Source: Afipia sp. (lineage in GTDB: Bacteria > Pseudomonadota > Alphaproteobacteria > Rhizobiales > Xanthobacteraceae). From it: DNA of 64,000 bases. Below are positions 29,938 through 44,317 of the stretch, piece by piece. The stretch lies in the NCBI GenBank assembly GCA_017308575.1, contig JAFKEQ010000003.1:682001-746000 (forward strand), in the 5' to 3' direction. Position numbers and translations under genes: made by a program. Numbering within the stretch: position 1 is the first letter of the stretch; every line of letters begins with the position of its first letter. Below the pieces are notes generated by a model that was not told the DNA's origin, ran no database searches, and saw only the letters and a program-made list of their open reading frames with translations.

Positions 29938-30062
29938 GTGTCCCGGGCGCGATGCAGTGCGAAGCGCTGCTTCGCAGAACCGGGACCGCAACAAATTAAT
30001 ACCTCTGTCACGGCCCCGGCTCTGCGGAGCGGCATAAGAATGCCGCACCGCGTCCGGGGCAC
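29938..30062. repeat. Palindromic element, family A copy 1
   Basis: About 125 bp made of two hairpin halves. The left half has outer stem GTCCCGG/CCGGGAC around an inner AGCGC/GCGCT-type stem; the right half has GCCCCGG/CCGGGGC around a GCGG/CCGC stem. Forward orientation, between the small TM gene and g1. Confidence 0.85.
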
Positions 30063-30097
30063 ATTTTTTCCGAACCACTGTTTAGGACTCGCGGACA

Positions 30098-30766
30098 ATG
30101 GCCAAAAAACCTTCGTCCACGCCGGTGAAAAAGCGGGCAGGGGCGAAGGGAGCGAAGAAGACCGTCAGGAAAACCGGCTCCGGGAAAATTTCATCCAAGA
30201 CAAATGCGCCGAAGACAGTCGCGCCGAAAAAGCCCGCCGGGAAGACATCTGAATCCGAAAAACGCCCGCGGGCGAAAGTCCTTAAGGAGCCTCCGAGCCA
30301 TCTCGTTGTCGACGACAGCGATCATGCCGCTGTCGCACTGGTCTCCGCCGCCGCGCAATCGGCCGGACCCCATCGCATCCGCAACCGGCGCTCGGCGGTC
30401 GACCGCCTAAATGATCCTCCGCCCGGGCAGGAGCCCGCGGTGTCGCTGGTGCAGCGGGTGGGCGACGCCATCGAGCGCGAACTGGAAAAGATCGAACGCC
30501 TGATCGGCGACAGCCACATTCCGCCGCTTGCCCGCGCGGACGCCGAAAGCCGTGCGCGCGTGCTGGCGTCGCTGGCGCGCACCCTGAAGGAAGTGATGCG
30601 GCTGCGCGAGCAGGAGCGCGGTGCCGATGAGGACAAAGCGAAAGCCGCCGATGACGACGCCGCTCCCCGCGATCTCGACGAATTCCGCCGCGAACTTTCG
30701 CGACGCCTGGAAGGCATGGTCGGTGCCGCAGCGCCGCTTCCTGCTGGAAAGCATGAGCCGGGCTGA
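30098..30766 (+). CDS. GTA g1-like protein, putative small terminase with Lys-rich tail
   Basis: 222 aa. Residues 1-65 are a Lys/Ala/Pro/Thr-rich, histone H1-like disordered tail. Residues about 110-215 are helical (SLVQRVGDAIERELEKIERL..., ARVLASLARTLKEVMRLREQ, DLDEFRRELSRRLEGMVG). It occupies the g1 position ahead of the large terminase; RcGTA g1 is reported to be the small terminase. The helical core fits that role, but similarity to g1 was judged by position and composition only. Its 3' end overlaps the terminase gene. Confidence 0.6.
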   Translation: MAKKPSSTPVKKRAGAKGAKKTVRKTGSGKISSKTNAPKTVAPKKPAGKTSESEKRPRAKVLKEPPSHLVVDDSDHAAVALVSAAAQSAGPHRIRNRRSAVDRLNDPPPGQEPAVSLVQRVGDAIERELEKIERLIGDSHIPPLARADAESRARVLASLARTLKEVMRLREQERGADEDKAKAADDDAAPRDLDEFRRELSRRLEGMVGAAAPLPAGKHEPG

Positions 30767-32021
30767 ACTCGAACTGCTGGCCGCGCGATGGGATGTGTTC
30801 GCGCACGATCATCAGGTGCCGCCTGCGTTCGCGCCGAACGGCCAGCCGTGGCTGACATGGCTGCTGATCGGTGGACGCGGCGCGGGCAAGACGCGCGCGG
30901 GCGCGGAATGGGTGAGGGCGCAGGCGCTGGGCCTGCCGCCGCTGGCGGATGGGCCGGTGACGAATATCGCGCTGGTTGGCGAAACAGAACACGATGTGCG
31001 CGAGGTCATGGTGGAGGGCGTTTCGGGGCTGCTTGCGATTCATCCTCGTAGCGAGCGGCCTGCATGGCTTCCCTCGCGCAAGCGGCTGGAATGGAACAAT
31101 GGCGCGGTGGCTTATGCCTTCTCCGCGGAAGATCCGGAGAGTCTGCGCGGGCCGCAATTCGGCTGCGCGTGGTCTGACGAGATGGCGAAGTGGCGCTATG
31201 CGCAGGCGACGTTCGACATGCTGCAGTTCGGCCTGCGGCTCGGTAGCCAGCCACGCCAGCTCATTACAACGACACCGCGCCCGACCGCGCTGATCAAGCG
31301 GCTGATGCTGGAGCCGACCAGCGTGGTGACGCGCGCGGGCACGCAGGCCAATGCGTATCATCTTGCGCCGACATTCCTGAAAGGCGTGCTGGCGCGATAT
31401 AAAGACACGCGGCTCGGCCGTCAGGAACTGGACGGCGAGATCATCGAGGATCGGCCCGACGCGCTGTGGTCGCGCGCGCTGATCGAGTCGTGCCGCGTGC
31501 GGGATCTGCCGCCGCTGGCGCGTATCGTGGTTGCGGTCGATCCACCCGCCTCAAGCGGCAAGCGCGCCGATGCCTGCGGCATCGTGGCGGCGGGCATCAC
31601 GGACGATGGCGCGATTTACGTGATCGCGGACGAGACGGTATCGAATGCCACGCCCACGGTATGGGCTTCAAAGGCCATCGCGTTGTGGCGAAGGCTTGAA
31701 GCGGATGCGCTGGTGGCGGAAGTCAATCAGGGCGGCGAGATGGTGCGCACGGTGATCAACGAGGTGGACGCAAGCGTGCCGGTGGTTTCGGTGCGCGCGC
31801 ATCGCGGAAAGTATCTGCGCGCCGAGCCCGTCGCGACATTGTACGCGCAGGGGCGGGTGAAACATGTGGAGATGTTTTCCGCGCTGGAAGACGAGATGTG
31901 CGACTTCGGTCCCGGCGGCCTGTCGTCCGGCCGCTCGCCGGACCGGCTCGACGCGCTGGTGTGGGCCATCGCATCGCTGACGTTCACATCGCGGGCGCAG
32001 CCGCGGGTGCGGGGGCTGTGA
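30651..32021 (+). CDS. GTA large terminase / DNA packaging ATPase (g2)
   Basis: 456-aa packaging motor. Walker A GGRGAGKT at residues 74-81, Walker B-like CAWSDEMAKW, and a C-terminal RNase H-like nuclease with acidic residues (VVAVDPPASSGKRADACG; SPDRLDALVWAIASL). Start uncertain: ATG 30651 overlaps g1 by 116 bases in a different frame; ATG 30753 (MSRAELELLA) would overlap by only 14 and is also plausible. In a GTA this enzyme cuts and packages host DNA headfully. First of the conserved structural genes. Confidence 0.9.
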   Translation: MTTPLPAISTNSAANFRDAWKAWSVPQRRFLLESMSRAELELLAARWDVFAHDHQVPPAFAPNGQPWLTWLLIGGRGAGKTRAGAEWVRAQALGLPPLADGPVTNIALVGETEHDVREVMVEGVSGLLAIHPRSERPAWLPSRKRLEWNNGAVAYAFSAEDPESLRGPQFGCAWSDEMAKWRYAQATFDMLQFGLRLGSQPRQLITTTPRPTALIKRLMLEPTSVVTRAGTQANAYHLAPTFLKGVLARYKDTRLGRQELDGEIIEDRPDALWSRALIESCRVRDLPPLARIVVAVDPPASSGKRADACGIVAAGITDDGAIYVIADETVSNATPTVWASKAIALWRRLEADALVAEVNQGGEMVRTVINEVDASVPVVSVRAHRGKYLRAEPVATLYAQGRVKHVEMFSALEDEMCDFGPGGLSSGRSPDRLDALVWAIASLTFTSRAQPRVRGL

Positions 32022-32037
32022 GGAGATGGATTTGCAT

Positions 32038-32161
32038 GTGTCCCGGGCGCGATGCAACGCGCAGCGTTGCTTCGCAGAACCGGGACCGTAACGAACACCG
32101 CTTGTGTAGCGGTCCCGGCTCTGCGGAGCGGCATTTCATGCCGCACCGCGTCCGGGACACG
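32038..32161. repeat. Palindromic element, family A copy 2
   Basis: 124-bp double-hairpin element, forward orientation, starting 17 bases after the terminase stop. Its right end is 10 bases from the GIY-YIG gene stop. Nearly identical in core to copies 1, 3 and 4. Confidence 0.88.
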
Positions 32162-32171
32162 CATTCGGAGT

Positions 32172-32462
32172 TCATAAGATGTTATCTGACAGATCGCGCC
32201 AGTCCGGATTGTTCTTCTCGATCAACTCGAATTTCCATGATCTGCGCCATCGTTTAAGCGAGTGCTCGCGTGATCTGGCTTCAAGGATCGAATTGTAGGT
32301 TTCGACATGCACCAGACTTGTCACACCGTAAGTTGAAGTGAAGCCTGGAATGAGTTTTGCGCGATGCTCTGTAAGCCTGCGCGACAGGTCGTTCGTGATA
32401 CCAACGTAAAGCACGCCGCGCGGTGTATTCGCGAGAATGTAGACAAAGAATCTCCGATCCAT
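32172..32462 (-). CDS. GIY-YIG family endonuclease (UPF0213 type)
   Basis: 96-aa single-domain GIY-YIG protein. FFVYILANTPRGVLYVGITN gives the YI/YVG motif pair, followed by DLSRRLTEHR (catalytic Arg region), EARSREHSLKRW with the conserved Glu, and a C-terminal NPDWRDL. Start at MDRRFF (32462); the longer reading runs into repeat sequence. It is antisense to the GTA operon and lies exactly between family A copies 2 and 3 (10 and 5 bases away). DNA cleavage activity is family inference; a role with the repeats is speculation. Confidence 0.88.
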   Translation of the reverse strand: MDRRFFVYILANTPRGVLYVGITNDLSRRLTEHRAKLIPGFTSTYGVTSLVHVETYNSILEARSREHSLKRWRRSWKFELIEKNNPDWRDLSDNIL

Positions 32463-32467
32463 CGGAT

Positions 32468-32591
32468 GTGTCCCGGGCGCGACGCAGCGTATAACGCTGC
32501 TTCGCAGAACCGGGACCGTCAAGGGTCGTGTTTGTAACGGCCCCGGCTCTGCGGAGCGGCATGAAGGATGCCGCGCCGCGTCCGGGGCACA
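32468..32591. repeat. Palindromic element, family A copy 3
   Basis: 124-bp double-hairpin element in the same orientation as copy 2. Its left end is 5 bases from the GIY-YIG start codon and its right end is 17 bases from the portal start. Confidence 0.88.
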
Positions 32592-32608
32592 CAAGCCAGA
32601 AAGCCCAC

Positions 32609-33781
32609 ATGCTCAATTTCAAAACTCTCTTCCGTGCGCCCGAATCCAAGGCCTCGCGCACCGCGCAGGTGCTGGCGTTCGAGAGCTGCGGGCGGGCGCG
32701 GTGGACGCCGCGCGATTATGCGGCGCTGGCGCGCGAGGGTTATCTCGCCAACGCCATCGTGCATCGCGCGGTGCGGCTGATCGCGGAGAACGCGGCGGCA
32801 TGCAGCTTCCTGATCTACGAGGGCGCGCAGGAGCGGGAGGCGCATCCGCTGTCGCGGCTGCTGACGCGGCCCAACGCGCGGCAGGACGGCGCGACATTCT
32901 TCGAGGCGCTATACGCGCACATGCTGCTGGCGGGAAACGCCTATGTCGAGGCGGTCGCGCTCGGTGACGAGGTGCGCGAGCTTTACGCGCTGCGGCCGGA
33001 CCGCATGAAGGTGGTGCCGGGTTCTGACGGATGGCCGGAGGCCTATGACTACAGCGTCGCGGGGCGCGGCGTGCGGTTCGATCAGCTTGCGTTGCCCGTG
33101 CCGCCGATCCTGCATCTGACCTTCTTTCATCCGCTCGACGATCACTACGGCCTCGCGCCGGTGGAAGCGGCGGCGGTGGCGGTGGATACGCACAACAGCG
33201 CGGCGAAGTGGAACAAGGCGCTGCTCGACAATGCGGCGCGGCCGTCCGGCGCGCTGGTCTATTCGGGACCGGAAGGTGCGGTGCTGTCCGACCAGCAGTT
33301 CGACCGGCTGAAACGCGAACTCACCGACACCTATCAGGGCGCGGTGAATGCGGGGCGGCCTCTCTTGCTCGAAGGTGGGCTCGAGTGGAAGGCGATGTCG
33401 CTGACGCCGAAGGACATGGACTTTCTCGACGCGAAGAATTCCGCCGCGCGCGAAATCGCGCTGGCGTTCGGCGTGCCGCCGATGCTGCTTGGCATTCCCG
33501 GCGACAACACCTATGCGAATTTCCAGGAAGCCACCCGCGCACTGTGGCGGCAGACCATCCTGCCGCTGGCGGCGCGCGTCGGCGCGTCGTTCGCGCACTG
33601 GCTGTCGCCGCAGTTCGGCGAGAGCCTACGCCTTGTGGTGGACGCCGATCGCATCGATGCGCTGGCGGGCGACCGCGCCGCGCTGTGGGACCGCATCGCG
33701 GGCGCGCCCTTCCTGACGCTGAACGAAAAACGCGAAGCCATCGGCTACGCGCCCGTGGAGGGCGGGGATCGGCTGGAGTGA
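32609..33781 (+). CDS. GTA/HK97-family portal protein (g3)
   Basis: 390-aa portal subunit forming the dodecameric DNA gate at the capsid vertex. Family features: WTPRDYAALAREGYLANAIV near the N-terminus, HPLSRLLTRPNARQDG, ILHLTFFHPLDDHYGLAPVE in the crown/clip, and PGDNTYANFQEATRALWRQT near residue 300. ATG 32609 begins MLNFKTLF; upstream sequence in frame is repeat. Second core gene of the GTA after the GIY-YIG insertion. Confidence 0.93.
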   Translation: MLNFKTLFRAPESKASRTAQVLAFESCGRARWTPRDYAALAREGYLANAIVHRAVRLIAENAAACSFLIYEGAQEREAHPLSRLLTRPNARQDGATFFEALYAHMLLAGNAYVEAVALGDEVRELYALRPDRMKVVPGSDGWPEAYDYSVAGRGVRFDQLALPVPPILHLTFFHPLDDHYGLAPVEAAAVAVDTHNSAAKWNKALLDNAARPSGALVYSGPEGAVLSDQQFDRLKRELTDTYQGAVNAGRPLLLEGGLEWKAMSLTPKDMDFLDAKNSAAREIALAFGVPPMLLGIPGDNTYANFQEATRALWRQTILPLAARVGASFAHWLSPQFGESLRLVVDADRIDALAGDRAALWDRIAGAPFLTLNEKREAIGYAPVEGGDRLE

Positions 33782-33790
33782 GTTTCAAGG

Positions 33791-33886
33791 CCGTCATCCT
33801 GAGGTGCGAGCGCTTGCGAGCCTCGAAGGATGACAGGCCGTCGCCCTTCGAGGCCGCGCAAGAGGCGCGGCGCCTCAGGGTGACGG
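33791..33886. repeat. Palindromic element, family C
   Basis: About 96 bp with imperfect terminal inverted repeats CCGTCATCCTGAGG and CCTCAGGGTGACGG. It lies between portal and the next small gene. Single copy in this window. Confidence 0.8.
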
Positions 33887-33899
33887 AAAGAAGAGAGCC

Positions 33900-34106
33900 A
33901 TGTCCGACTTGATCCGCATTTTCAGCGAGCGTGGCGATCTCGCGCACCTCGCGCTGTTTCTCTGGGCGGTGGCGGCCAGTGCTGCATTCCTGATCACGCT
34001 GCGCGAACTGGCGGCCGCGACGCGGCGGTTCGACGAGTTCGTCCGCCAGCTCTCGCGCTTCAACCGCAAGGCCAAGGGCCAGCGGCATTTCAACCAAGAG
34101 GATTGA
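33900..34106 (+). CDS. GTA-associated small membrane protein (g3.5 position)
   Basis: 68 aa with one TM helix (LALFLWAVAASAAFLITL) and a basic C-terminal tail. GAAGAGAG precedes ATG 33900. It sits between portal and prohead protease, where RcGTA has the small gene g3.5; homology is not shown. Possibly an accessory of assembly or a membrane-associated factor. Confidence 0.65.
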   Translation: MSDLIRIFSERGDLAHLALFLWAVAASAAFLITLRELAAATRRFDEFVRQLSRFNRKAKGQRHFNQED

Positions 34107-34109
34107 TTG

Positions 34110-34298
34110 ATGGATACGCTGCACACGGTGCTGCGGGCAATTGCGCCCGAGAAGAAATCGTCGCCGGATCATCTGACGGTGTTCCGCGAATTCCTGGCGC
34201 ATCTCGACCGCATTCAGCACAAGGCGCCGGTGAGATCCGCTTCCGCGAAGCCACCGCGCAAGCCGTCGCGACGGAAGATGCCGAAGCGCGGGAAGTAG
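34110..34298 (+). CDS. Small basic GTA-associated protein (62 aa)
   Basis: 62-aa protein, helical first half (TLHTVLRAIAPEKKSSPDHL) and very basic end (KPPRKPSRRKMPKRGK). ATG 34110 is 3 bases after the previous stop, suggesting coupling. Unknown family; the basic tail could bind DNA. Confidence 0.55.
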   Translation: MDTLHTVLRAIAPEKKSSPDHLTVFREFLAHLDRIQHKAPVRSASAKPPRKPSRRKMPKRGK

Positions 34299-34321
34299 GC
34301 GCGTTCGCGATTATTTTCGGC

Positions 34322-34444
34322 GTCGTCCCGGCGCAGGCCGGGACCCAGACACCCTGCGTTATCGATACTGCGATGGATGGTCCTGTCCTTCCGTCGTCAA
34401 CATGATGTCCGGTGGTTATGGGTCCCGGCCTGCGCCGGGACGAC
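34322..34444. repeat. Palindromic element, family D with perfect 25-bp terminal inverted repeats
   Basis: 123 bp. The ends, 34322-34346 and 34420-34444, are exact reverse complements over 25 bases, starting GTCGTCCCGGCGCAGG. The interior (73 bp) is non-palindromic, MITE-like in form. Confidence 0.9.
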
Positions 34445-34529
34445 CTCGAATGTAAATTTCGCCTCGCGCGAAACAACAGCACCGACATTCAATGCCTTTT
34501 CACCCCCGCAACCTTCGCGAGGAATGCCC

Positions 34530-35036
34530 ATGCATGCGCCGCTGTCAGCGACCACACGCGTTTCGCTCGCCGGCGACGGCACCGTGGAAGGCTATGCCAG
34601 CCTGTTCGGCGAGATCGACCAGGCGCGCGACATGGTGATGCCCGGCGCGTTCACGCAGACGCTGCAGAGCAGGGGCTTGCGCCGCATTCCGATGCTGTTC
34701 CAGCACGACCCGTCGGAGCTTGTCGGCATCTGGCTCGATCTGCATGAGGACTTCCGCGGGTTGTGGGCGCGTGGGCGCCTGATCCCGGATGTGGCGCGGG
34801 GCCGCGAACTGCTGGCGCTGGTGCGCGAGGGCGCCATCGACGGACTCTCCATCGGCTATCGCACCGTGCGCGCGAAGATCGATCCGAAGACGCGCGTTCG
34901 CAAGCTCTACCAGGTCGATCTCTGGGAAGTCTCCATCGTCACCTTTCCCTTGCTCAACGGCGCACGGGTGAGGGCGGTGAAGGGCGCGCGTCCCCGCGGC
35001 ACTCGCATCAAATCGTCTTTCGTCCATCACGCATGA
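34530..35036 (+). CDS. GTA prohead protease (g4), HK97 family
   Basis: 168-aa capsid maturation protease. FEGYASLF-like start (VEGYASLFGEIDQARDMVMP), the catalytic His in FQHDPSELVGIW, and the Ser in DGLSIGYRT, which together are the HK97 protease signature. GAGGA 6 bases before ATG 34530 supports that start over ATG 34524. It processes the capsid protein made next. Confidence 0.92.
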   Translation: MHAPLSATTRVSLAGDGTVEGYASLFGEIDQARDMVMPGAFTQTLQSRGLRRIPMLFQHDPSELVGIWLDLHEDFRGLWARGRLIPDVARGRELLALVREGAIDGLSIGYRTVRAKIDPKTRVRKLYQVDLWEVSIVTFPLLNGARVRAVKGARPRGTRIKSSFVHHA

Positions 35037-35064
35037 CTTCAATCCATCACACAGGAGCTTTGAC

Positions 35065-36336
35065 ATGACTATCGACATTCAGGACCACGCGCCGGAGCAC
35101 AAGTCCGGCATTTCTTCCGCCGCGCGCGGCGAGCATGACGCCATCATGGCGATGTTCGAGGAGTTCAAGGCCGCGAACGACCAGCGTCTCGATGCGGTTG
35201 GCCGCCGCGCCGACGTGCTGCTCGACCAGAAGGTCGATCGCATCAACGATGCGCTGGACGCACAGATGAAGCGCATCGACGATCTCGCGCTGAAGTCCGC
35301 GCGACCTTTGCTTGAAGGAGGCCGGCTGGAAGGCACGCGCGCGCATCTCTCCGATGCGTCGGCGCGCGAGCACAAGAGCGCCTTCGACGCCTATGTGCGC
35401 CAGGGCGAGAGCGCGGGCCTGCGCGCGATGGAGACCAAGGCGATGTCTGCCGGCTCCAATGCCGACGGCGGTTACCTCGTGCCGGCCGAACTTGAACACG
35501 AGATCGGCGCGCGGCTGAAGGCGATCTCGCCGATCCGCTCCATCGCGTCGGTGCGGGAGATTTCCGGCGGCGTCTACAAGAAGCCGTTCATGACCGCGGG
35601 TCCCGCCGCCGGCTGGGTCGGCGAGACGGATTCGCGCACACAGACCACGTCGCCGACGCTCGATGCGTTGAGCTTCCCGGCGATGGAGCTTTACGCCATG
35701 CCGGCGGCGACCGCGACGCTGCTCGACGACTCGGCGGTGAACATCGACGAGTGGATCGCCTCCGAGGTCGAACTGACCTTCGCGCTGCAGGAGGGCACGG
35801 CCTTCGTTACCGGCGACGGCAGCAACAAGCCGAAGGGTTTCCTCAGCTACGACACCGTGGCGAACGGCTCCTGGGTGTGGGGCAAGCTCGGCCATGTCGC
35901 CACCGGCGCCTCGGCGGCCTTTCCGGAGGACGATCCGTCCGACGTGCTGGTCGATCTGATCTACGCGCTAAAGGCGGGCTACCGGCAGAACGGCAGCTTC
36001 GTGATGAACCGCAAGACGCAGGCCGCGATCCGCAAGTTCAAGGACACCGGCGGCGCATATCTGTGGCAGCCGCCGGCGCAGGCCGGCGGCCGCGCCTCGC
36101 TGATGACGTTCCCGCTGGTGGAGGCGGAGGACATGCCGGACATCGCGGCGAACTCGCTCTCCATCGCGTTCGGCGATTTCAAGCGCGGCTACCTGATCGT
36201 GGACCGGCTCGGCGTGCGCGTGCTGCGCGATCCGTATTCCGCCAAGCCCTATGTGTTGTTCTACACCACCAAGCGCGTCGGCGGCGGCGTGCAGGACTTC
36301 GACGCCATCAAGGTGCTGAAGTTCGCGGCGAGCTGA
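35065..36336 (+). CDS. GTA major capsid protein (g5), HK97 fold
   Basis: 423 aa. N-terminal coiled-coil scaffolding part (about 20-115, to be cleaved by g4) then HK97 fold: SAGSNADGGYLVPAELEHEI near 130, SPIRSIASVREISGG, and a C-terminus with SLSIAFGDFKRGYLIVDRLG and FYTTKRVGGGVQDFDAIKVL. AGGAG precedes the ATG. It builds the small capsid that carries host DNA. Confidence 0.95.
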   Translation: MTIDIQDHAPEHKSGISSAARGEHDAIMAMFEEFKAANDQRLDAVGRRADVLLDQKVDRINDALDAQMKRIDDLALKSARPLLEGGRLEGTRAHLSDASAREHKSAFDAYVRQGESAGLRAMETKAMSAGSNADGGYLVPAELEHEIGARLKAISPIRSIASVREISGGVYKKPFMTAGPAAGWVGETDSRTQTTSPTLDALSFPAMELYAMPAATATLLDDSAVNIDEWIASEVELTFALQEGTAFVTGDGSNKPKGFLSYDTVANGSWVWGKLGHVATGASAAFPEDDPSDVLVDLIYALKAGYRQNGSFVMNRKTQAAIRKFKDTGGAYLWQPPAQAGGRASLMTFPLVEAEDMPDIAANSLSIAFGDFKRGYLIVDRLGVRVLRDPYSAKPYVLFYTTKRVGGGVQDFDAIKVLKFAAS

Positions 36337-36341
36337 ACACT

Positions 36342-36463
36342 TGTCCCGGGCGCGAAGCAGCGCAATGCGCTGCTTCGCAGAACCGGGACCGCCACGGAGA
36401 CTCGTGTCCGTAACGGCCCCGGCTCTGCGGAGCGCATTTCACGCCGCGCCGCGTCCGGGGCGC
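36342..36463. repeat. Palindromic element, family A copy 4
   Basis: 122-bp double-hairpin element, forward orientation, starting 5 bases after the capsid stop. Confidence 0.88.
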
Positions 36464-36540
36464 GGATGCGCCCCTGAAGTTTCGTTTTCAGACGCGACGG
36501 GCCTCTTTTCTCGACCGATTTCTTTCAGGAAACGCTTCGC

Positions 36541-36880
36541 ATGTCCGCACGCGATGATGCTTACGCACGCCATCAGCAAGCGCGGTGGATGCGGTCGGAC
36601 GCGCACCGATGGATCAGGCCGGACAGGATATGACGACCACCATATCGTCGAACAAACATGGGCCGAATATTTCGGGTTTTCGAGAAGCCAGATTGATGAT
36701 CCGTCAAATCTGGTTAGTATTCCGCGATTGAAGCATTACCAGATCACGGGGTGGTATGGGGCGCCCAACCCGGACTATGGCTGGTTGTCTCCCAGGGAGT
36801 ATTTGTCGGATAAAAGTTGGGATGAACGCATGAAGGTCGGACGCGATGCACTGATATTGTTCGGGGCCCTCAAGCCATGA
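36541..36880 (+). pseudogene. Remnant of polymorphic-toxin-like HHIVEQ nuclease gene
   Basis: The start is intact: AGGAAA then ATG 36541, encoding HQQARWMRSDAHRWIRPD in a 30-residue frame that ends at TGA 36631-36633. The following sequence continues in another frame, GYDDHHIVEQTWAEYFGFS... to the stop at 36880, with the end SPREYLSDKSWDERMKVGR and ALILFGALKP. From memory, rhizobial proteins with the same N- and C-terminal blocks have a long middle region joining them. Here the middle appears deleted and the frame shifted at about 36617-36632. The C-terminal block looks like an HNH-superfamily toxin nuclease (HHIVEQ). Base composition is lower GC than its neighbours. Its stop overlaps the DUF2019 start by 4 bases. 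Confidence 0.7.
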
Positions 36881-37248
36881 AGAAAGTTGATCTTTCGAAA
36901 ATGAGCGACGGCGATCTGGTTCAACTTTTTGCCGAAAATACGCGCGAGCAGGACAAGGCGCTTCTTGTCGGTCAGAGCGCGAAATACAATCGGCTTTTCG
37001 TGCGCATGAAAGAGATCCATGACGAGTTGAAGGCTCGCCCCGGGGACCAGCGTCGGCTACTTGTCCAGCTCTTCAAATTTCCCAATATGCATGTGCGTCT
37101 CCAGGCCGCCAAACTCACATTGGCAGTTGCTCCGCTGGAGGCTCGAAATCAACTTCAGGCAATCGTTGATTCAAAGTGGTTTCCACAGGCTGGAGACGCT
37201 GGAATGTGCCTGCATAATCTCGATACTGGGTTTTACAAACCGACCTAA
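36877..37248 (+). CDS. DUF2019 domain protein, likely immunity protein
   Basis: 123 aa, fully helical, with DUF2019 hallmarks: MSDGDLVQLFAE at the start, ARPGDQRRLLVQLFKFPNMH and AAKLTLAVAPLEARNQLQAI in the middle, and PQAGDAGMCLHNLDTGFYKP at the end. DUF2019 proteins commonly sit after toxin-like nuclease genes, and are presumed immunity proteins. The ATGA overlap with the toxin remnant fits that role. The toxin looks dead but this gene is intact. Function is inference from context. Confidence 0.8.
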   Translation: MKKVDLSKMSDGDLVQLFAENTREQDKALLVGQSAKYNRLFVRMKEIHDELKARPGDQRRLLVQLFKFPNMHVRLQAAKLTLAVAPLEARNQLQAIVDSKWFPQAGDAGMCLHNLDTGFYKPT

Positions 37249-37384
37249 AATAGTGCGGCTCGGTTCGAGAATGATTGATCGTAAGGACTGATCACACGAT
37301 GGTTCCGCAAGGATTTACCGATCTAACAAGCCGCTTCTATCAGGGAGGTCTTCGCGGGGCCGTGAACTGCAAAGAGGGAGTCGC

Positions 37385-37615
37385 ATGAAACGTCATGTCA
37401 GGATCGCCGCCGGTCTGCTGGCGGTCGGGATCGGTGCCTGTGGCACTACATCCGCCTTTGCCCGCGGCGCTGCGCCGAGCGTGATGAGCTCGCCCGGCTA
37501 TCAGCGCGCGCTGGAGGACTCCCGCAAACGATATAAGGACTCGTATTCGCAGCCCTATACGAAGCCGCCGGCGGTCTATCCGCATAAGAAGTGGCGCAAG
37601 CGCGGCAAGCGCTGA
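37385..37615 (+). CDS. Small exported protein, possible lipoprotein
   Basis: 76 aa with a signal peptide (RIAAGLLAVGIGACGTTSAFA) that could be cleaved at AFA-R or lipidated at the Cys in IGAC. The mature part is Tyr/Pro/Lys-rich with a basic end (KKWRKRGKR). GAGGGAG precedes ATG 37385. Inside the GTA gap between g5 and g6. No family recognised. Confidence 0.65.
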   Translation: MKRHVRIAAGLLAVGIGACGTTSAFARGAAPSVMSSPGYQRALEDSRKRYKDSYSQPYTKPPAVYPHKKWRKRGKR

Positions 37616-37621
37616 CGCAGT

Positions 37622-37891
37622 TTACCGGCCCGCACCCACACCGACATCGACGCCGCCGCCGATACGGAGGCAGGTGTCCGAGCCCGGTGCGCGGACGAAG
37701 CCCGCGCCGAATTCCGAACACGACGACGGCTGGCGCGGGCGAACGGCCTGAACAGGCTTCTGCGCCGCAGTGCTCTGCGACTTGAGGCGGCGGGATTTAT
37801 CCGTTGCCGGTTGCGCGAAAGCGCTGGTCCAGGCCGCCACGGAAATAACAATAGCGATGACGATGCGCGTCGCGATGCGGGCATGTGTCAT
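37622..37891 (-). CDS. Small exported protein with porin-like motif
   Basis: 89-aa protein: signal peptide (IVIAIVISVAAWTSAFA) then a short linker and SSCSEFGAGFVRAPGSDTCL followed by RIGGGVDVGVGAGR. That C-terminal block resembles the first strands of alphaproteobacterial porins (C-x-x-x-GAGF-x-x-PG-[ST]-DTC-[IL]-[RK]-IGG). The length rules out a barrel, so it is either a truncated porin gene or a stand-alone mini-protein. ATG 37891 chosen. It ends 6 bases from the gene on the other strand. Confidence 0.6.
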   Translation of the reverse strand: MTHARIATRIVIAIVISVAAWTSAFAQPATDKSRRLKSQSTAAQKPVQAVRPRQPSSCSEFGAGFVRAPGSDTCLRIGGGVDVGVGAGR

Positions 37892-37914
37892 GTCATGACT
37901 CCTGCGCTTGCGGT

Positions 37915-38682
37915 TCACAGCGGAGCGCCCCAGCTGCGTGCCGTCTTCAGGATCCAGTCTCTATATAATGTGAGCGGGGTCACGCCGGTGAGGCCGCCGC
38001 AGCCCGCGGCATTGTTCGCCGCCGTGGACCAGCTCACCACGCCGACAACGACGCTGACGCCATTGCGATCCTCAAAGGCCGGCGCGCCGGAATCGCCGGT
38101 GCAGGCCCCCATGCCCGCGCTGCGGTTCTGGGTCTGCGGGTCCATCAGGCGAATCTGCAGCGTGCCGGGCTGGCCCGTCACCATCAGCGGCGCGGCGCGC
38201 ACGGTGCCGACACCGGCGTCGCTGCCCGCCACGGTGGAGCCGATGCCCGCGACAGTCAGGCGCGAGGCGGGCGTCAGCGGCACGCTCGGTGTGCCGAGCG
38301 GCGCGAAAGTTTTTCCCGCCAGCGGCGCGGGCAGGCGCAGCAGCGAGACATCCGCCGTGGCGCGATGCGCGGAAATGGATTGCGTATTGTATTGCGGATG
38401 GGTGGCGACGCGCTGCGGCGTGACGAGCTGCGGCGGCTTCGTGGAATAGTCGATGACGCGATTGGCGGAGCCCGGCGCGATGCAGTGCGCGGCGGTCAGT
38501 ACGATGGTCGGCGTGATCAGTGTGCCGGTGCAGACGCCGCCGCCCGCGGCGACCACGGTGACGATGGCGCGCGCGATGGTCTCGCTCGGCGCGGTGCGGC
38601 TGCCGGTGACGGCATGCGACGGCTGCGCGAGCGCGAGGATCAAGGTTGCAGTGGCGATGGAACAGCGAAGCGAACGGATCAT
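37915..38682 (-). CDS. Secreted trypsin-like serine protease (S1)
   Basis: 255-aa exported S1 protease. Signal peptide to about residue 24 (QPSHA-V), catalytic H66 (VLTAAHC), D111 (TADVSLLRL) and S198 (GACTGDSGAPAF), with cysteines placed for the usual disulfides. Predicted to act outside the cytoplasm; substrate unknown. It is antisense to the GTA and lies with the porin-like mini-protein in the 2.5-kb accessory gap between g5 and g6. Confidence 0.9.
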   Translation of the reverse strand: MIRSLRCSIATATLILALAQPSHAVTGSRTAPSETIARAIVTVVAAGGGVCTGTLITPTIVLTAAHCIAPGSANRVIDYSTKPPQLVTPQRVATHPQYNTQSISAHRATADVSLLRLPAPLAGKTFAPLGTPSVPLTPASRLTVAGIGSTVAGSDAGVGTVRAAPLMVTGQPGTLQIRLMDPQTQNRSAGMGACTGDSGAPAFEDRNGVSVVVGVVSWSTAANNAAGCGGLTGVTPLTLYRDWILKTARSWGAPL

Positions 38683-38738
38683 CGCTCACGATGAGCCTTG
38701 ATGTGCGCGTTTTGTCAACCGCGTGATCATGCAATTTG

Positions 38739-38847
38739 CCGTCATTGCGAGGAGCCATTCGCGCGTTCTTCGACGCGCTATGGCGACGAAGCAATCCATC
38801 TTTGAAGAAACCGCAGGTGGATTGCTTCGCTTCGCTCGCAATGACGG
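38739..38847. repeat. Palindromic element, family B copy 1
   Basis: 109 bp bounded by CCGTCATTGCGAGGAGC and GCTCGCAATGACGG, with an inner GCGACGAAGCAATCCAT / GGATTGCTTCGCTTCGC pair. Same family as copy 2 at 40604. Confidence 0.88.
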
Positions 38848-38871
38848 TTGTTTGAACTACAGGAAACAACC

Positions 38872-39441
38872 ATGCCCGCATTTCTTCTCACTCCGCCCGC
38901 GCTTGAGCCGCTGTCGCTTCTTGAGGCGAAAAATTTTCTGCGCGTGGAACATGACGCCGACGACGTGCTGATCGCGTCGCTGGTGTCGGCCGCGCGCAAT
39001 CATGTCGAGGCCATGGCGCGCAGCGCGCTGATCGCACAGACCTGGCGGCTGGTGCTCGACCGCTGGCCCGATGACGGACGCATTGCGCCGCGCATCGGGC
39101 CGCTGCGGGCGCTGTCCGCCGCGCGTGTGTTCGATGCGGTGGGCGAGGGACGCGAGCTTGATCCGGATATGTTCGTGGTGGATCGCGCTGCAAACGTGAT
39201 CGCCGCGCCGGGCTGGTCGCTGCCCGTGCCGGGGCGCAGCGTTGCGGGAATCGAACTCGATATCGAGGCCGGTTTCGGTGAGGCCGCGTCCGATGTTCCG
39301 CCGCGGCTGTTGCAGGCGCTGCGCATGCTGGTGGCGCACTGGTATGAAAATCGCGGCCTGATCGCCATCGGCCAGACCGTGGCGATGATGCCCGCCACCG
39401 TCAACGCGCTGATCGCTTCGCATCGGGTGCTCTCGCTATGA
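38872..39441 (+). CDS. GTA head-tail connector / adaptor (g6)
   Basis: 189 aa. PPALEPLSLLEAKNFLRVEH and DDVLIASLVSAARNHVEAMA are the gp6/phiE125 gp8-like N-terminal helices; the C-terminus (ALRMLVAHWYENRG) closes the helical adaptor that docks on the portal. ATG 38872 follows AGGAAAC. Coupled to g7 by an ATGA overlap. Confidence 0.88.
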   Translation: MPAFLLTPPALEPLSLLEAKNFLRVEHDADDVLIASLVSAARNHVEAMARSALIAQTWRLVLDRWPDDGRIAPRIGPLRALSAARVFDAVGEGRELDPDMFVVDRAANVIAAPGWSLPVPGRSVAGIELDIEAGFGEAASDVPPRLLQALRMLVAHWYENRGLIAIGQTVAMMPATVNALIASHRVLSL

Positions 39442-39758
39442 TTGATCCGGGACAACTCAAGACGCGCCTTGTGGTGCAGCAGCCGGTGGAGACGCCGGAC
39501 GGCCAGGGCGGCGTGACGCGCACATGGACCACGTTCGCGACCGTGTGGGCGCAGGTGACGCCACTTGCGGCGCGCCGCGAGATGCAGGCCGATGCGGACG
39601 GTGCGACGCAAGCCTATCGCATCGTCCTGCGCAGCAATCTCTCGCTGACGTTGCAGCATCGCTTCAGCGACGGCGCGCGGGTCTACCGCATTGTTGCGAT
39701 CCGCGACCGCGATGACCGGCGCTTTATCGAGATCGATGCGGAAGTCCGCGTCTCTTAA
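39438..39758 (+). CDS. GTA head closure protein / stopper (g7)
   Basis: 106-aa beta-rich head closure protein: PGQLKTRLVVQQPVETPDGQ at the start and VYRIVAIRDRDDRRFIEIDA at the end, matching phage SPP1 gp16-like stoppers. Seals the filled head beneath the adaptor. Overlaps g6 by 4 bases. Confidence 0.88.
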   Translation: MIDPGQLKTRLVVQQPVETPDGQGGVTRTWTTFATVWAQVTPLAARREMQADADGATQAYRIVLRSNLSLTLQHRFSDGARVYRIVAIRDRDDRRFIEIDAEVRVS

Positions 39759-39773
39759 CTTCGGGACAGCATC

Positions 39774-40184
39774 ATGACTTCATCCAGCGTGGCGCTGCGC
39801 GCCGCGATCCATGGCGCGTTGCGCAGTGACAGCGCGCTCTCCGCCGCGCTCGGCGGCGCGCATGTCTATGACGAGCCGCCGAAGAACGCGGCGTTTCCCT
39901 ATGTCACGCTCGGCGAGGCGCGGCTGATCGATGCGTCGTCAGATGACGGACCAACGCAGGAACATCAATTGACGCTGCATGCCTGGTCGCGCGAAGGCGG
40001 CCATCGCGAGGCCCATGTCATCGCCGGCGCGCTGCTGCAGGCGCTCGACGATACGCCGCTGTCGCCCGACGGGCACCGCCTGGTGAATTTGCGATTCACG
40101 ATCGCCGACATCCGCCGCGAATCCGACGGGCGCACCTATCACGCGCTGGTGCGCTTCCGCGCCGTCACCGAACCTTGGTCTTAA
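39774..40184 (+). CDS. GTA tail terminator, DUF3168 (g8)
   Basis: 136-aa DUF3168 protein: ALRAAIHGALRSDSALSAAL, HVYDEPPKNAAFPYVTLGEA and EHQLTLHAWSREGGHREAH are the typical blocks. Forms the ring ending the tail tube at the head interface. 15 bases after g7. Confidence 0.88.
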   Translation: MTSSSVALRAAIHGALRSDSALSAALGGAHVYDEPPKNAAFPYVTLGEARLIDASSDDGPTQEHQLTLHAWSREGGHREAHVIAGALLQALDDTPLSPDGHRLVNLRFTIADIRRESDGRTYHALVRFRAVTEPWS

Positions 40185-40195
40185 GGAGAAACATC

Positions 40196-40603
40196 ATGGC
40201 CGCCCAGAAAGGCAAGGACCTGCTCTTGAAGATGAGCGACGGCGCAAGTTTCGTCACCGTCGCCGGATTGCGCAGCCGCCGGATCGCATTCAACGCCGAA
40301 ACGGTGGACGTCACCCATGCGGAGTCCGTCGACCGCTGGCGTGAATTGCTGGCGGGTGCGGGCGTCAAGCGCGCGGCGGTGTCGGGCAGGGGGCTATTCA
40401 AGGATTCATCATCGGATGCGATGGTGCGTCAGGCGTTCTTCGACGGCGCGTTGACATCCTGTCAGGTCGTGGTGCCGGACTTCGGCACCATCGAGGGCCT
40501 GTTCCAGATTTCAAGCCTTGAATTCGCCGGCGAGCACAACGGCGAAGTGACCTTCGACCTGTCGCTGGAATCGGCCGGCGCGCTGACGTTTACGGCGACC
40601 TAG
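40196..40603 (+). CDS. GTA major tail tube protein (g9), TP901-1 family
   Basis: 135 aa, tail tube subunit: AAQKGKDLLLKMSDGASFVT, ETVDVTHAESVDRWRELLAG and the C-terminal EHNGEVTFDLSLESAGALTF. AAGGAG precedes ATG 40196. It polymerises around the tape measure. Confidence 0.9.
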   Translation: MAAQKGKDLLLKMSDGASFVTVAGLRSRRIAFNAETVDVTHAESVDRWRELLAGAGVKRAAVSGRGLFKDSSSDAMVRQAFFDGALTSCQVVVPDFGTIEGLFQISSLEFAGEHNGEVTFDLSLESAGALTFTAT

Positions 40604-40687
40604 CGTCATTGCGAGGAGCACTTGCGACGAAGCAATCCATTCTTCGCAAGCCAAGGATGGATTGCTTCGCTTCGCTCGCAATGACGG
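40604..40687. repeat. Palindromic element, family B copy 2
   Basis: 84 bp, starting right after the g9 stop, bounded by CGTCATTGCGAGGAGC and GCTCGCAATGACGG. It lacks the extra middle segment of copy 1. Confidence 0.88.
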
Positions 40688-40703
40688 GAACGGAGGAAAC
40701 CTC

Positions 40704-41021
40704 ATGCCCAACATCTATCGCGGAGAGATCGCCGCCGATCTCGGTGGCAGGCGCCGCACGCTGGTGCTGACGCTCGGCGCGCTGGCCGAACTGGAAGCTG
40801 CCTTCGGTGCGGGCGACCTGATGGCGCTGGCGGAGCGCTTCGGCTCGGGCCGGCTGTCGGCGCGCGATCTGGTGCGCATCATCGCGGCAGGCCTGCGCGG
40901 CGCGGGCGAGGCAATCACAGACGATGAGGTTGCCGCGCTCACCGCCGATGGCGGCGCGACGGCTTATGTGCGCATCGCTGCCGACCTGATCGCGGCGACT
41001 TTCGATGGCGAGATGCGATGA
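40704..41021 (+). CDS. GTA tail assembly chaperone (g10)
   Basis: 105-aa GTA_gp10-type protein: MPNIYRGEIAADLGGRRRTL, LGALAELEAAFGAGDLMALA and LSARDLVRIIAAGLRGAGEA. Tail assembly chaperones keep the tape measure soluble before tube assembly. ATG 40704 after GGAGG. Its stop overlaps the next gene by 4 bases. Confidence 0.88.
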   Translation: MPNIYRGEIAADLGGRRRTLVLTLGALAELEAAFGAGDLMALAERFGSGRLSARDLVRIIAAGLRGAGEAITDDEVAALTADGGATAYVRIAADLIAATFDGEMR

Positions 41022-41209
41022 ATCCGTTCCCCTGGAGCGACGCCATCGGATTCGGCCTCGGCGTGCTGCGACTGCCGCCGGAACAGTTCTGGCGGATGAC
41101 GCCGCGTGAGCTGGCTTATGCGGTGCGTGCTGTTCGCGGGCCGTCGGGTGAACCGATGGATCGCGCGGCTCTCGGCCGGCTCATGAGCCTGTTTCCGGAT
41201 AAAGCTTAA
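41018..41209 (+). CDS. GTA phage tail assembly chaperone (g10.1)
   Basis: 63 aa beginning MNPFPWSDAIGFGLGVLRLP, with FWRMTPRELAYAVRA: the small tail chaperone found next to g10 in alphaproteobacterial GTAs. Coupled to g10 (ATGA overlap). In many tailed phages the equivalent is made by frameshifting; here it is a separate start. Confidence 0.85.
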   Translation: MNPFPWSDAIGFGLGVLRLPPEQFWRMTPRELAYAVRAVRGPSGEPMDRAALGRLMSLFPDKA

Positions 41210-41220
41210 GGGAGAATCCC

Positions 41221-41805
41221 ATGACGGACTCATCCGGCGACGATCTGTCGCTGACGCTGAACACACTCGGATTGCGGACGCGCGATCTTGCGCTCGGCGC
41301 CGGCGCGTTTTCGCGGGCGATGACCAGCGCGTTCTCTGCGTCGGTGGTCGGCGGCAAGCAGTTCGACGATGTGCTCAAATCGCTGACGCTGCGGCTGTCG
41401 GACCTTGCGGTGCGGATGGCGTTCAAGCCGCTGGAGAGCAGCCTTTCCAGCGGACTGAGCAGCTTATTGTCAGGCCTTACAGGAGCCACCGCCGCGTCAT
41501 CCACTGTTAAACTTGCGGCCGCATCCGGCGCGGTGAAGCCGTTCGCCAGCGGCGGCGTCATCGGCACGCCGACCTATTTTCCGATGATGCAGGGCGGCAT
41601 CGGCCTTGCGGGCGAGGCCGGACCGGAAGCGATCATGCCATTGGCACGCGGATCCGACGGCAAGCTCGGTGTCGCCGGGCGCGGCGGCGGCAACAGCGTG
41701 ACCATCCAGATCGCGACGCCGGACCTCGACAGCTTCCGCCGTTCGGAAAGTTACATCACCGGCCAGATCGCCCGCGCCGTCTCGCGCGGACAGCGGAGTT
41801 TGTAG
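41221..41805 (+). CDS. GTA tail tape measure protein (g11)
   Basis: 194 aa, a very short tape measure. N-terminal helical part (FSRAMTSAFSASVVGGKQFD, LKSLTLRLSDLAVRMAFKPL) and a C-terminal block KPFASGGVIGTPTYFPM followed by GLAGEAGPEAIMPLARG, typical of GTA and lambda-type tape measure C-termini. The short length predicts a short tail, as expected for GTA particles rather than a siphophage. Confidence 0.88.
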   Translation: MTDSSGDDLSLTLNTLGLRTRDLALGAGAFSRAMTSAFSASVVGGKQFDDVLKSLTLRLSDLAVRMAFKPLESSLSSGLSSLLSGLTGATAASSTVKLAAASGAVKPFASGGVIGTPTYFPMMQGGIGLAGEAGPEAIMPLARGSDGKLGVAGRGGGNSVTIQIATPDLDSFRRSESYITGQIARAVSRGQRSL

Positions 41806-41816
41806 AGACGCTTTCT

Positions 41817-41938
41817 TGCCCCGGACGCGGGGCGGCATGAAATGCCGCGCCGCTGAGCCGGGGCCGTTCGAGGTACAGAGCGCGTAACGGTCCCGGTTCT
41901 GCGAAGCAATGCTGCGCATCGCATCGCGCCCGGGACGC
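41817..41938. repeat. Palindromic element, family A copy 5 (reverse)
   Basis: 122 bp, reverse orientation relative to copies 1-4, filling the gap between g11 and g12. Confidence 0.87.
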
Positions 41939-41962
41939 AGATTCTCAATGACCGAGGCAACC

Positions 41963-42604
41963 ATGCCCGTATTCCATGAGATCCTGTTCCCGCTCGACAT
42001 CGCGCTGAAGAGCGCGGGCGGGCCGGAGCGGCGGACCGACATCGTCACCTTCGGATCGGGACGCGAGGAGCGCAATGCGCGCTGGGCGCATTCGCGCCGC
42101 CGCTTCGATGCGGGTTATGGCGTCAAGACGCTGGATGCGTTGCAGGAGGTGGTCGCGTTCTTCGAGGAGCGGCGCGGGCAACTCTATGGTTTTCGCTGGC
42201 GCGACCGGCTCGATCATTCCTCCGCATCGCCTGGCGCGAGCGTGACACCGCTCGATCAGGCGCTCGGCGCGGGCGACGGCACGCGCGCCGCGTTTCAATT
42301 GCTCAAGACCTATGGCAGCACTTACGCGCCTTATACGCGCGCCATCGCCAAGCCGGTGCCGGGAAGCGTGCGTGTCGCGGTCGCGGGACACGAAGTCGAA
42401 TCCGGCAGCGCGTTCACCTGCGACGCCACCACAGGCATCGTCACCTTTTTGCCGGAGCATATTCCCGCCGGGGGCAAGGCGGTTACTGCCGGGTTCCTGT
42501 TCGACGTGCCCGTGCGGTTCGACACCGATTATCTCGAGGTTGATCTGTCCGCCTTCGCGGCGGGCGCGATTCCGAAAATTCCGCTGGTGGAGATCCGGCC
42601 GTGA
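41963..42604 (+). CDS. GTA distal tail protein, DUF2460 (g12)
   Basis: 213-aa DUF2460 protein: FHEILFPLDIALKSAGGPER, FGSGREERNARWAHSRRRFD and FFEERRGQLYGFRWRDRLDH are the family blocks. GAGGC before ATG 41963 favours it over ATG 41948. Joins the tail tube to the baseplate hub. GTGA overlap with g13. Confidence 0.9.
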   Translation: MPVFHEILFPLDIALKSAGGPERRTDIVTFGSGREERNARWAHSRRRFDAGYGVKTLDALQEVVAFFEERRGQLYGFRWRDRLDHSSASPGASVTPLDQALGAGDGTRAAFQLLKTYGSTYAPYTRAIAKPVPGSVRVAVAGHEVESGSAFTCDATTGIVTFLPEHIPAGGKAVTAGFLFDVPVRFDTDYLEVDLSAFAAGAIPKIPLVEIRP

Positions 42605-43491
42605 GAGACATTCCATCCGCGCTACAGACCAAACTGGATTCCGGCGTCACCACGCTGTGTCATTGCTGGAAGCTGACGCGGCGCGATGGCGTGGTGCAGG
42701 GCTTCACCGATCATGACGACGATCTCATCATCGATGGCTTGACGTACAAGGCGGGCACCGGTTTCACGTCGTCGGAAGCGACCAGCCGCTTCGACCTGTC
42801 GGTGGACGGCACGGAAATCGTGGGCGCGCTGTCGGACGATGCGTTGCTCGAAAGCGATCTTGCGGCGGGGCGCTACGATGCAGCCGCTGTGGAGACCTGG
42901 CTGGTGGACTGGAGCGATGTATCGCTAAAGGTGCTGACCGCGCGTTCGACGCTCGGTGAGGTGAAGCGCGAAGGGCAGGCGTTCAGCGCCGAACTGCGCG
43001 GGCTGGCGGACACGCTGGCGCAGGAGAGCGGGCGGCTGTTCACCGCGCGATGTAGCGCCGATCTCGGCGATGCGCGATGCCGGTTTGATCTGGTTGCGGC
43101 TGAACTCGAAGGCGATGGCGGCGTGGAGTCGATCGAAGCCACCTCGGCGCTTGTCGCAACCGGACTCGATGGGCTTGCCGAAGGCATCTTCACCGGCGGC
43201 AAGCTCACCTGGACCTCCGGCGCGAACAGCGGCCTGTCGGTCGAGATCAAGGAGCATCGCGTTGCGTCCGGCCACGCGCGGCTGTCGTTGTGGCAGGCCA
43301 TGCCGGAAGCAATCGCAACTGGCGATACATTCACGATCAGCGCGGGATGCGACAAGCGTTTCGTCACCTGCCGCGACCGTTTTCATAACGTCGTCAATTT
43401 CCGTGGTTTCCCGCACATTCCGGGCAACGATTTCGTCATCGCCTCGGCGGAAGCCGGCGCGGGCAACGACGGCGGATCAATGGCGGGGTGA
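42601..43491 (+). CDS. GTA baseplate hub protein, DUF2163 (g13)
   Basis: 296-aa DUF2163/BR0599-type hub: GFTDHDDDLIIDGLTYKAGT at the start and RDRFHNVVNFRGFPHIPGND at the end. Four cysteines, C-x8-C (ARCSADLGDARC) and C-x6-C (GCDKRFVTC), are spaced to hold an Fe-S cluster as in lambda gpL-like hubs; that is inference. Start is GTG 42601, overlapping g12 by 4 bases. Sometimes misannotated as a dehydrogenase. Confidence 0.88.
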   Translation: MRDIPSALQTKLDSGVTTLCHCWKLTRRDGVVQGFTDHDDDLIIDGLTYKAGTGFTSSEATSRFDLSVDGTEIVGALSDDALLESDLAAGRYDAAAVETWLVDWSDVSLKVLTARSTLGEVKREGQAFSAELRGLADTLAQESGRLFTARCSADLGDARCRFDLVAAELEGDGGVESIEATSALVATGLDGLAEGIFTGGKLTWTSGANSGLSVEIKEHRVASGHARLSLWQAMPEAIATGDTFTISAGCDKRFVTCRDRFHNVVNFRGFPHIPGNDFVIASAEAGAGNDGGSMAG

Positions 43492-43507
43492 GAGATGAAA
43501 CATTTCC

Positions 43508-43598
43508 ATTGTCATCACCGGGCTTGTCCCGGTGATCCCGATGGATTGAGCATAGTGCTTTCGTGATCGGGATGGCCGGGACAAGCCCGGCCATGACG
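43508..43598. repeat. Palindromic element, family E
   Basis: 91 bp with imperfect terminal inverted repeats (left TCACCGGGCTTGTCCCGGTGAT, pairing with ATGGCCGGGACAAGCCCGGCCAT on the right by its stem), between g13 and g14. Single copy here. Confidence 0.8.
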
Positions 43599-43622
43599 GC
43601 AGAACAGTTCCGGGCCTTATTA

Positions 43623-44066
43623 ATGACTCCCTCTCTCACCCGCGTCGCCATCGTCACCGAGGCGCGCGAATGGATCGGCACGCGCTATCGCCATCAGGCA
43701 TCGGTGAAAGGCGTCGGCTGCGATTGCCTCGGCCTCGTGCGCGGCGTCTGGCGCACCTGCGTCGGCGCGGAGCCGGAACTGCCGCCGCCTTACGCGCCGG
43801 ACTGGGCGGAAGCCTCCGGCATCGAGACGCTGGCGCAGGCCGCCACGCGCCATCTGGTGCCGGTGGAGCGCGACGATCTTCGCGGCGGCGATGTGCTGCT
43901 GTTTCGCTGGCGCGCCGGATATGTCGCCAAGCACGCCGCGATTGCGACCGGCGAGGGCACGATGATCCACGCGCACGATGGCGCGGCGGTGTGCGAGGTC
44001 GCGCTGTCGCCATGGTGGCAGCGGCGGCTGGCCTTCGTGTTCCGGTTTCCGGGGGTGTTGGACTGA
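43623..44066 (+). CDS. GTA NlpC/P60 cell wall peptidase (g14)
   Basis: 147-aa NlpC/P60 peptidase: catalytic Cys C35 in GCDCLGLVRG and His H104 in KHAAIATGEG. Probably cuts recipient peptidoglycan during DNA entry as proposed for RcGTA. Start at ATG 43623; sequence upstream in frame is repeat. Confidence 0.9.
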   Translation: MTPSLTRVAIVTEAREWIGTRYRHQASVKGVGCDCLGLVRGVWRTCVGAEPELPPPYAPDWAEASGIETLAQAATRHLVPVERDDLRGGDVLLFRWRAGYVAKHAAIATGEGTMIHAHDGAAVCEVALSPWWQRRLAFVFRFPGVLD

Positions 44067-44080
44067 TCAGGCATTCCTCC

Positions 44081-44150
44081 GCTCATTCCCGCGCAAGCGG
44101 GAATCCAGTGTGTTTTCCGTCTGGGTCTCCGCTTTCGCGGGGACGAGCGG
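44081..44150. repeat. Palindromic element, family F
   Basis: 70 bp, degenerate: GCTCATTCCCGCGCAAGCGG pairs loosely with CCGCTTTCGCGGGGACGAGC. Right after g14. Confidence 0.65.
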
Positions 44151-44171
44151 AAATAGCAACGAGCGGCCTCT

Positions 44172-44294
44172 TGTCCCGGACGCGGTGCGGCACGCAGTGC
44201 CGCTCCGCAGAGCCGGGACCGTTACGGGCGCTTTATCCTCTTGCGGTCCCGGATCAGCAGCGCACCGCTGTCGCGCTGCGCAGCATCCGGGACA
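44172..44294. repeat. Palindromic element, family A copy 6 (reverse, diverged)
   Basis: 123 bp, reverse orientation, more diverged on its right half than the other copies, ending 24 bases before the g15 start. Confidence 0.8.
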
Positions 44295-44317
44295 CCAGCA
44301 TCTATTACGGACTTCTC

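Follow-up and report, generated by a model that had tools for sequence, protein, structure and literature searches.

A small GIY-YIG nuclease gene and the hairpin repeats on either side of it appear to make up a minimal mobile unit. The explanation that we favour, with a probability of about two in three, is that a single-strand nuclease specific for its own REP hairpins forms this unit together with them, and that the approximately 40 elements of 123 bp dispersed through the genome are gene-less derivatives of it. Comparison of related loci demonstrates, at the level of sequence, that gene and hairpins belong together as a unit, that the hairpin family is specific to the nuclease lineage, that the edges of the unit lie at the hairpins and that copy number follows the matching nuclease. 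We infer that the nuclease may also cut or move its element, and as regards both nicking and spread this leans on the parallel with RAYT and on the reported behaviour of Neisseria Ssn. Few repeats are as common in bacterial genomes as REPs. Of their two superfamilies, GTAG is known to have RAYT as its enzyme, whereas none was found for CGTC in the 2013 survey of Di Nocera et al. (PMC3733652), according to which CGTC-tagged REPs 'apparently lack a dedicated transposase'. The present data point to one GIY-YIG family as the long-missing partner enzyme of the CGTC REPs, and the lineage-by-lineage matching of nuclease and repeat makes the question of the CGTC enzyme testable with small proteins and short oligonucleotides.

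In the window (the whole stretch of 64,000 nucleotides that was analysed) the nuclease gene, which matches the Pfam GIY-YIG family, lies between two direct copies of the element, as had been proposed from the sequence (Table 1). These two copies are 123 bp each with a mutual identity of 79%, and copy 1 is 83% identical to each of them. The original prediction gave 10 and 5 bases between gene and elements; the shorter distance was correct and the longer measures 11. It also held that g2 and g3 were both left intact, and the Pfam matches confirm that terminase and portal are full length, as are the protease, capsid and head-tail proteins near the unit, which places the unit inside a gene-transfer-agent (GTA)-like or prophage-like head-gene cluster. 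Six of the roughly 40 type A elements of the genome lie in this cluster. Two findings go beyond that prediction: the 123-bp element is a pair of REP hairpins of a widespread class, and the g2-g3 junction is one among many places holding such units.

Table 1. Coordinates of the nuclease gene, the type A elements and the adjoining head genes in the window.
Feature	Position	Strand	Remarks
Type A REPIN copy 1	29938..30062	+	without nuclease gene
Terminase large subunit (g2)	30621..32021	+	intact; Pfam Terminase_6N + Terminase_6C (PF03237/PF17289)
Type A REPIN copy 2	32038..32160	+	downstream of nuclease gene
REPIN copy 2 hairpins	32038-32088 and 32110-32160		inverted to each other, variable 21-nt spacer
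GIY-YIG nuclease gene	32172..32462	-	single domain, 96 codons + stop, antisense to flanking phage-type genes
Type A REPIN copy 3	32468..32590	+	upstream of nuclease gene; start codon 5 nt away
Portal protein (g3)	32609..33781	+	intact; Pfam Phage_portal (PF04860)
Type A REPIN copy 4	36342..36461	+	after capsid gene, without nuclease gene
Type A REPIN copy 5	41817..41936	-	
Type A REPIN copy 6	44172..44295	-	

Several further features of the window were observed. With the start codon so close to a REP pair (window 32463-32594), and with a reading frame that stays open across that pair, the leader of the nuclease gene must lie within the hairpin and self-regulation is possible. Gene-less type A elements bunch near the nuclease (window 29938-44295), with four others within 30 kb against 0.28 expected (P 2e-4), and in G020 (around C1:1555218-1577368) four gene-less type A elements are found within 50 kb of the nuclease; such bunching could mean either that the elements spread locally or that the GTA region is permissive for them. 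A REP pair of another family (GTCATCCTGAGGTGCGAGCGCTTGCGAGCCTCGAAGGATGAC...) at 33793-33887 is of the style seen around the second small GIY-YIG gene of the genome (L002), and one of a third family (GTCGTCCCGGCGCAGGCCGGGACCCA with an inverted partner) at 34311-34455 resembles the repeats around the GIY-YIG genes L051, L206 and L210. Cargo-like genes are found at 36341-38700, between the capsid gene (g5) and the head-tail connector genes; one of them, at about 36341-36880, is an ORF that carries a DDHHIVEQ HNH-like motif, and another (37915-38682, minus strand) codes for a trypsin-like secreted protease.

Relatives of the nuclease were gathered from whole genomes, from genomes of named species and from viral contigs, and the 400 nt upstream of each gene were compared with the 400 nt downstream. 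In a set of 78 loci picked by similarity to the window's nuclease subfamily, a repeat common to both flanks was present at 72, against none of 288 control positions taken from other parts of these loci; together with a BLAST count of some 40 element copies in the 3.9-Mb genome, this puts the gene-between-elements layout far beyond chance. The original prediction had set against itself the case in which homologues consistently lack flanking repeats, and the opposite was found: related genes elsewhere are nearly always flanked, each lineage by its own repeat family, and empty sites exist between g2 and g3 and at other insertion points. Within the window genome two GIY-YIG genes of other subfamilies (L001 and L003) have no shared flanking repeats, and L002 sits between copies of another palindrome. 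Protein identity predicted the similarity of the flanking repeats over 4,631 non-syntenic locus pairs (pairs without shared distant flanks, syntenic pairs being excluded), with a Mantel r of 0.71 and a permutation maximum of 0.19. The repeat was shared by 193 of 195 such pairs (99%) with protein identity of at least 75% and by about 1% of those below 55%. L046/L075, L047/L082 and L045/L072 are in each case two entries for one place. Judged by these pairings, every GIY-YIG lineage is matched with a REP family of its own. Repeats of the same style adjoin relatives in Planktothrix, Sinorhizobium, Novosphingobium and Neisseria gonorrhoeae, where the relative is 50% identical and is flanked by CGTC-type CGTCATTCCCGCG... 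repeats, and also in Spirosoma, where the two flanks match each other weakly. On a Planktothrix agardhii plasmid (L255) a related GIY-YIG gene with palindromic repeats was seen between an MmeI-type restriction gene and the DISARM gene drmA. A literature search returned nothing linking GIY-YIG proteins with REP or palindromic repeats, nor with Bradyrhizobium.

The homology that non-syntenic copies share extends about 130 nt upstream and about 75 nt downstream of the gene, and the outer edges of the REPs mark its limits. In the genus of the window genome, type B1 comprises six units at five places, each 372-375 bp from tag to tag. The gap between mraY and murD is 9-22 nt in 23 genomes and is occupied by the unit in two, with a REP pair of another family alone in two more; that between ruvC and ruvA is 15-20 nt in four of the 10 genomes compared, and the unit is present in one. 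At g2-g3, where locations and gap lengths are accurate within 1 nt, the gap is 14-71 nt in eight genomes and the window-type unit is present in four. Related units thus keep defined ends where they are inserted at unrelated sites, and some of these sites are empty in relatives, as is characteristic of composite or simple transposons; for the window's own unit the empty-site evidence is that at g2-g3. The mraY-murD and ruvC-ruvA units gave no clean junction, and no target-site duplication was found at them.

The g2-g3 junction has been occupied in several ways. In G013 it holds a second GIY-YIG lineage, 49% identical and with its own REPs, and in G007 (C140:27435-27650, in L166) a broken copy of this G013-type lineage with its own REPs, the intact type A unit of G007 being elsewhere on the same contig. 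Other genomes have REP pairs alone (of other families and without a nuclease) or other genes at this position, including one of roughly 200 codons in L156 (G024), L158 (G018), L169 (G005) and L170 (G022), which shows that the terminase-portal junction takes other cargo too. Eight type A relatives are located at g2-g3 and group together, with weak support, in the type A gene tree. This clustering suggests that vertical residence outweighs movement in the type A lineage, which has probably long been resident between the terminase and portal genes.

It could be argued that the nuclease mainly serves the host: it would be a single-strand nuclease with site specificity, would influence DNA uptake or recombination, and would have the REPs as its marks in the genome; the spread of the units would then be due to ordinary homologous recombination and horizontal transfer and not to movement of their own. 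The Ssn proteins of Neisseria meningitidis and their homologues are said, following a 2025 study, to be GIY-YIG proteins that act as site-specific single-strand nucleases. Ssn of Neisseria reportedly has as its target a repeat that occurs in hundreds of copies, which it cuts in single-stranded DNA, and it is reported to modulate natural transformation; the 50%-identical N. gonorrhoeae gene, with its CGTCATTCCCGCG... flanks, is presumably ssn. In Rhodobacter, moreover, gene-transfer-agent DNA enters recipients as single strands via competence proteins, which would suit a role of this kind for a gene lodged among GTA genes. Against this, the units are found at many unrelated places, homology ends at the REP edges and near-empty sites exist in relatives, and homologous recombination alone does not yield REP-edged units at unrelated sites. 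The nuclease gene also runs antisense to the GTA genes and so is not part of a GTA operon. A mainly host-serving role is considered unlikely.

The preferred reading, that of a mobile unit with gene-less derivatives, is further supported by the relation of copy number to the enzyme. Type A elements number 12-34 (median 25) in the five genomes with a type A nuclease and have a median of 0 in the other 24 of the 29 genomes of the genus, a difference with an exact permutation value of 1.7e-5, uncorrected for kinship. Type A counts are unrelated to how many other nucleases a genome has (rho -0.09), whereas type B REPs follow the non-A nucleases (rho 0.61, p 4e-4), both correlations being likewise uncorrected for kinship. 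G004 has 15 type A elements with no type A nuclease detected, and the window genome, which lacks a type B nuclease, has 33 type B REPs; this suggests that elements outlast or outspread their enzyme. The persistence of REP copies without a matching nuclease, as in G004, would also be expected if some other enzyme moved the REPs and the GIY-YIG gene had been picked up between them as a passenger. A RAYT-type Y1_Tnp gene (PF01797) is absent from the window genome (G000) and from all five type A genomes, as well as from 26 of the 29 genomes of the genus. One gene family, moreover, is nearly always the cargo, with lineage-specific matching and matching copy numbers, and the passenger explanation is held to be improbable.

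The type A element is made up of two hairpins, each about 51 nt long, inverted and separated by a variable spacer of about 20 nt, and is built like a REP pair (REPIN); lone single hairpins occur as well, for example at L023 890-942. Across 30 copies from the window genome pairing is kept in 97% of cells in both hairpins, and the compensated cells number 60 against 14 +- 4 in shuffles. This retention of pairing through compensating changes indicates that folding is important. Around the approximately 40 elements of the genome no target-site duplication could be seen. The CGTC superfamily has been defined by a terminal CGTC, TGTC or CCTC tag, an AT-starting stem of 8-9 bp, a loop of 4-5, a CCA tail and HH dimers (PMC3733652). 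The repeats that flank the nucleases across lineages read gtC[AT-stem-loop-stem-AT]CCA, for example GTCATTGCCGGGCTTGACCCGGCAATCCA, GTCGTCCCCGCGAAAGCGGGGACCCA and CGTCATTCCGGCGAAAGCCGGAATCCA, and can mostly be assigned to this class; the type A element of the window deviates from the pattern in its GTGTC tag, longer two-part stem and CCG tail. With a looser REP scanner the tags pointed away from the gene on both flanks at 37 of 122 loci, against none of 478 control positions. A strict-tag scanner gave weak orientation statistics because REP tags vary (both flanks outward in 18% against 0.8%, with a mixed second run). The predicted fold of the whole element is very stable, at -86 kcal/mol, and this and the compensating changes would also be consistent with structures acting at the level of RNA, as terminators or mRNA stabilisers, that insulate a small gene by chance. 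Such a role leaves unexplained both the lineage-specific pairing of protein and repeat and the sharp edges of the units at unrelated sites, an Rfam search of the element matched no family, and it is regarded as very improbable.

The nuclease matches PF01541 (GIY-YIG) with 52.7 bits against a cut-off of 22.6, and the residues Y8, Y19, G21, R29, E66 and N85 are invariant in 44 relatives, which places it within the GIY-YIG superfamily. Its dN/dS of about 0.1 indicates purifying selection; several relatives are interrupted by stops. An AlphaFold2 model (pLDDT 92.6) contains no domain besides the nuclease, the nearest solved folds being UPF0213 proteins and Slx1, a branched-DNA nuclease, and UPF0213 was the sole match in a sequence search of solved structures. 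An NCBIfam search returned one match, below threshold, to the group I intron endonuclease TIGR01453 (22.5 against a cut-off of 56). A PADLOC scan gave no match and so lends no support to a known defence system, and the lack of a match in a search of phage records implies that the nuclease is not a phage gene in general; a scan of viral contigs yielded three relatives, the closest of which sits at a terminase-portal site. The idea that the nuclease is a GTA component was considered and is weakened, as the gene invariably lies on the strand opposite to the GTA genes and its relatives sit elsewhere. Of the two forms originally predicted, a minimal composite unit or a homing system, the first is strongly supported, and the second, a free-standing homing endonuclease aimed at the GTA terminase-portal junction, is hardly credible in the usual sense despite the GIY-YIG domain, the eight type A relatives at g2-g3 and the G013 and G007 lineage there, since an intron, a targeting domain (NUMOD or other) and a single conserved target allele are all absent, the intron endonuclease model scores far below its cut-off, relatives occupy many other loci and REP families without a nuclease also occupy g2-g3.

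Under the favoured explanation, that of a REP-specific nuclease forming a mobile unit with its hairpins, the enzyme would recognise and nick its own REP when this is single-stranded and folded, a state that could arise on the template of the lagging strand or in DNA that enters the cell as single strands. Either the REP-gene-REP block or a gene-less REP pair might then be copied into a new site by host repair. As GIY-YIG hydrolysis leaves no covalent link between enzyme and DNA, joining would have to be left to the recombination or replication of the host, which sets the process apart from HUH (RAYT) transposition. In the lineage of the window both ends of the unit would have turned into complete REP pairs in direct orientation. 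It may tentatively be proposed, at slightly less than even odds, that CGTC-type REPs in general are non-autonomous partners of self-encoded mobile elements of about 375 bp, each a GIY-YIG gene between two REPs, that move through hydrolytic nicking of folded single strands and host repair. If this were true, transposition would proceed by a route separate from those of HUH, DDE and homing systems, and the elements would be the smallest autonomous mobile elements described; if the units are themselves responsible for their movement, a self-encoded mobile element could hardly be much smaller than 375 bp and a new mechanism would be needed. The matched nuclease-hairpin pairs also provide a ready-made set of candidate sequence-specific single-strand nucleases.

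The closest named family to the nuclease is probably Ssn, with which it would share a small single-domain GIY-YIG protein and many-copy repeats matched to the enzyme. Features that the present analysis may add to the picture of Ssn are the REP-gene-REP arrangement with outward tags, the sharp edges at unrelated sites, the near-empty sites, the dependence of copy number and the derived REPIN-gene-REPIN form in the GTA cluster. I-TevI-type free-standing GIY-YIG homing endonucleases have the catalytic domain in common with the nuclease, which differs from them in having no targeting domain, intron or single conserved target allele and in its many unrelated insertion places. The likeness to the CGTC-tagged REPs (PMC3733652) lies in the GTC tag, AT-starting stem and CCA tail of most nuclease-flanking REPs, in tail-to-tail pairing with the tags outward and in overlapping hosts that include Bradyrhizobium, Caulobacter and Neisseria; here, unlike in that survey, which reports no enzyme gene, a GIY-YIG gene is associated with the repeats. 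With the REP/RAYT (TnpA-REP) system there are in common inverted hairpin pairs, a REP-bracketed gene, dispersed gene-less REPINs and one enzyme per REP family. A RAYT-like organisation, that is a REP-bracketed enzyme gene with dispersed REPINs of its family that depend on it, is thus found here, although the enzyme is a GIY-YIG hydrolase and not a Y1 HUH transposase, and so falls outside the RAYT family.
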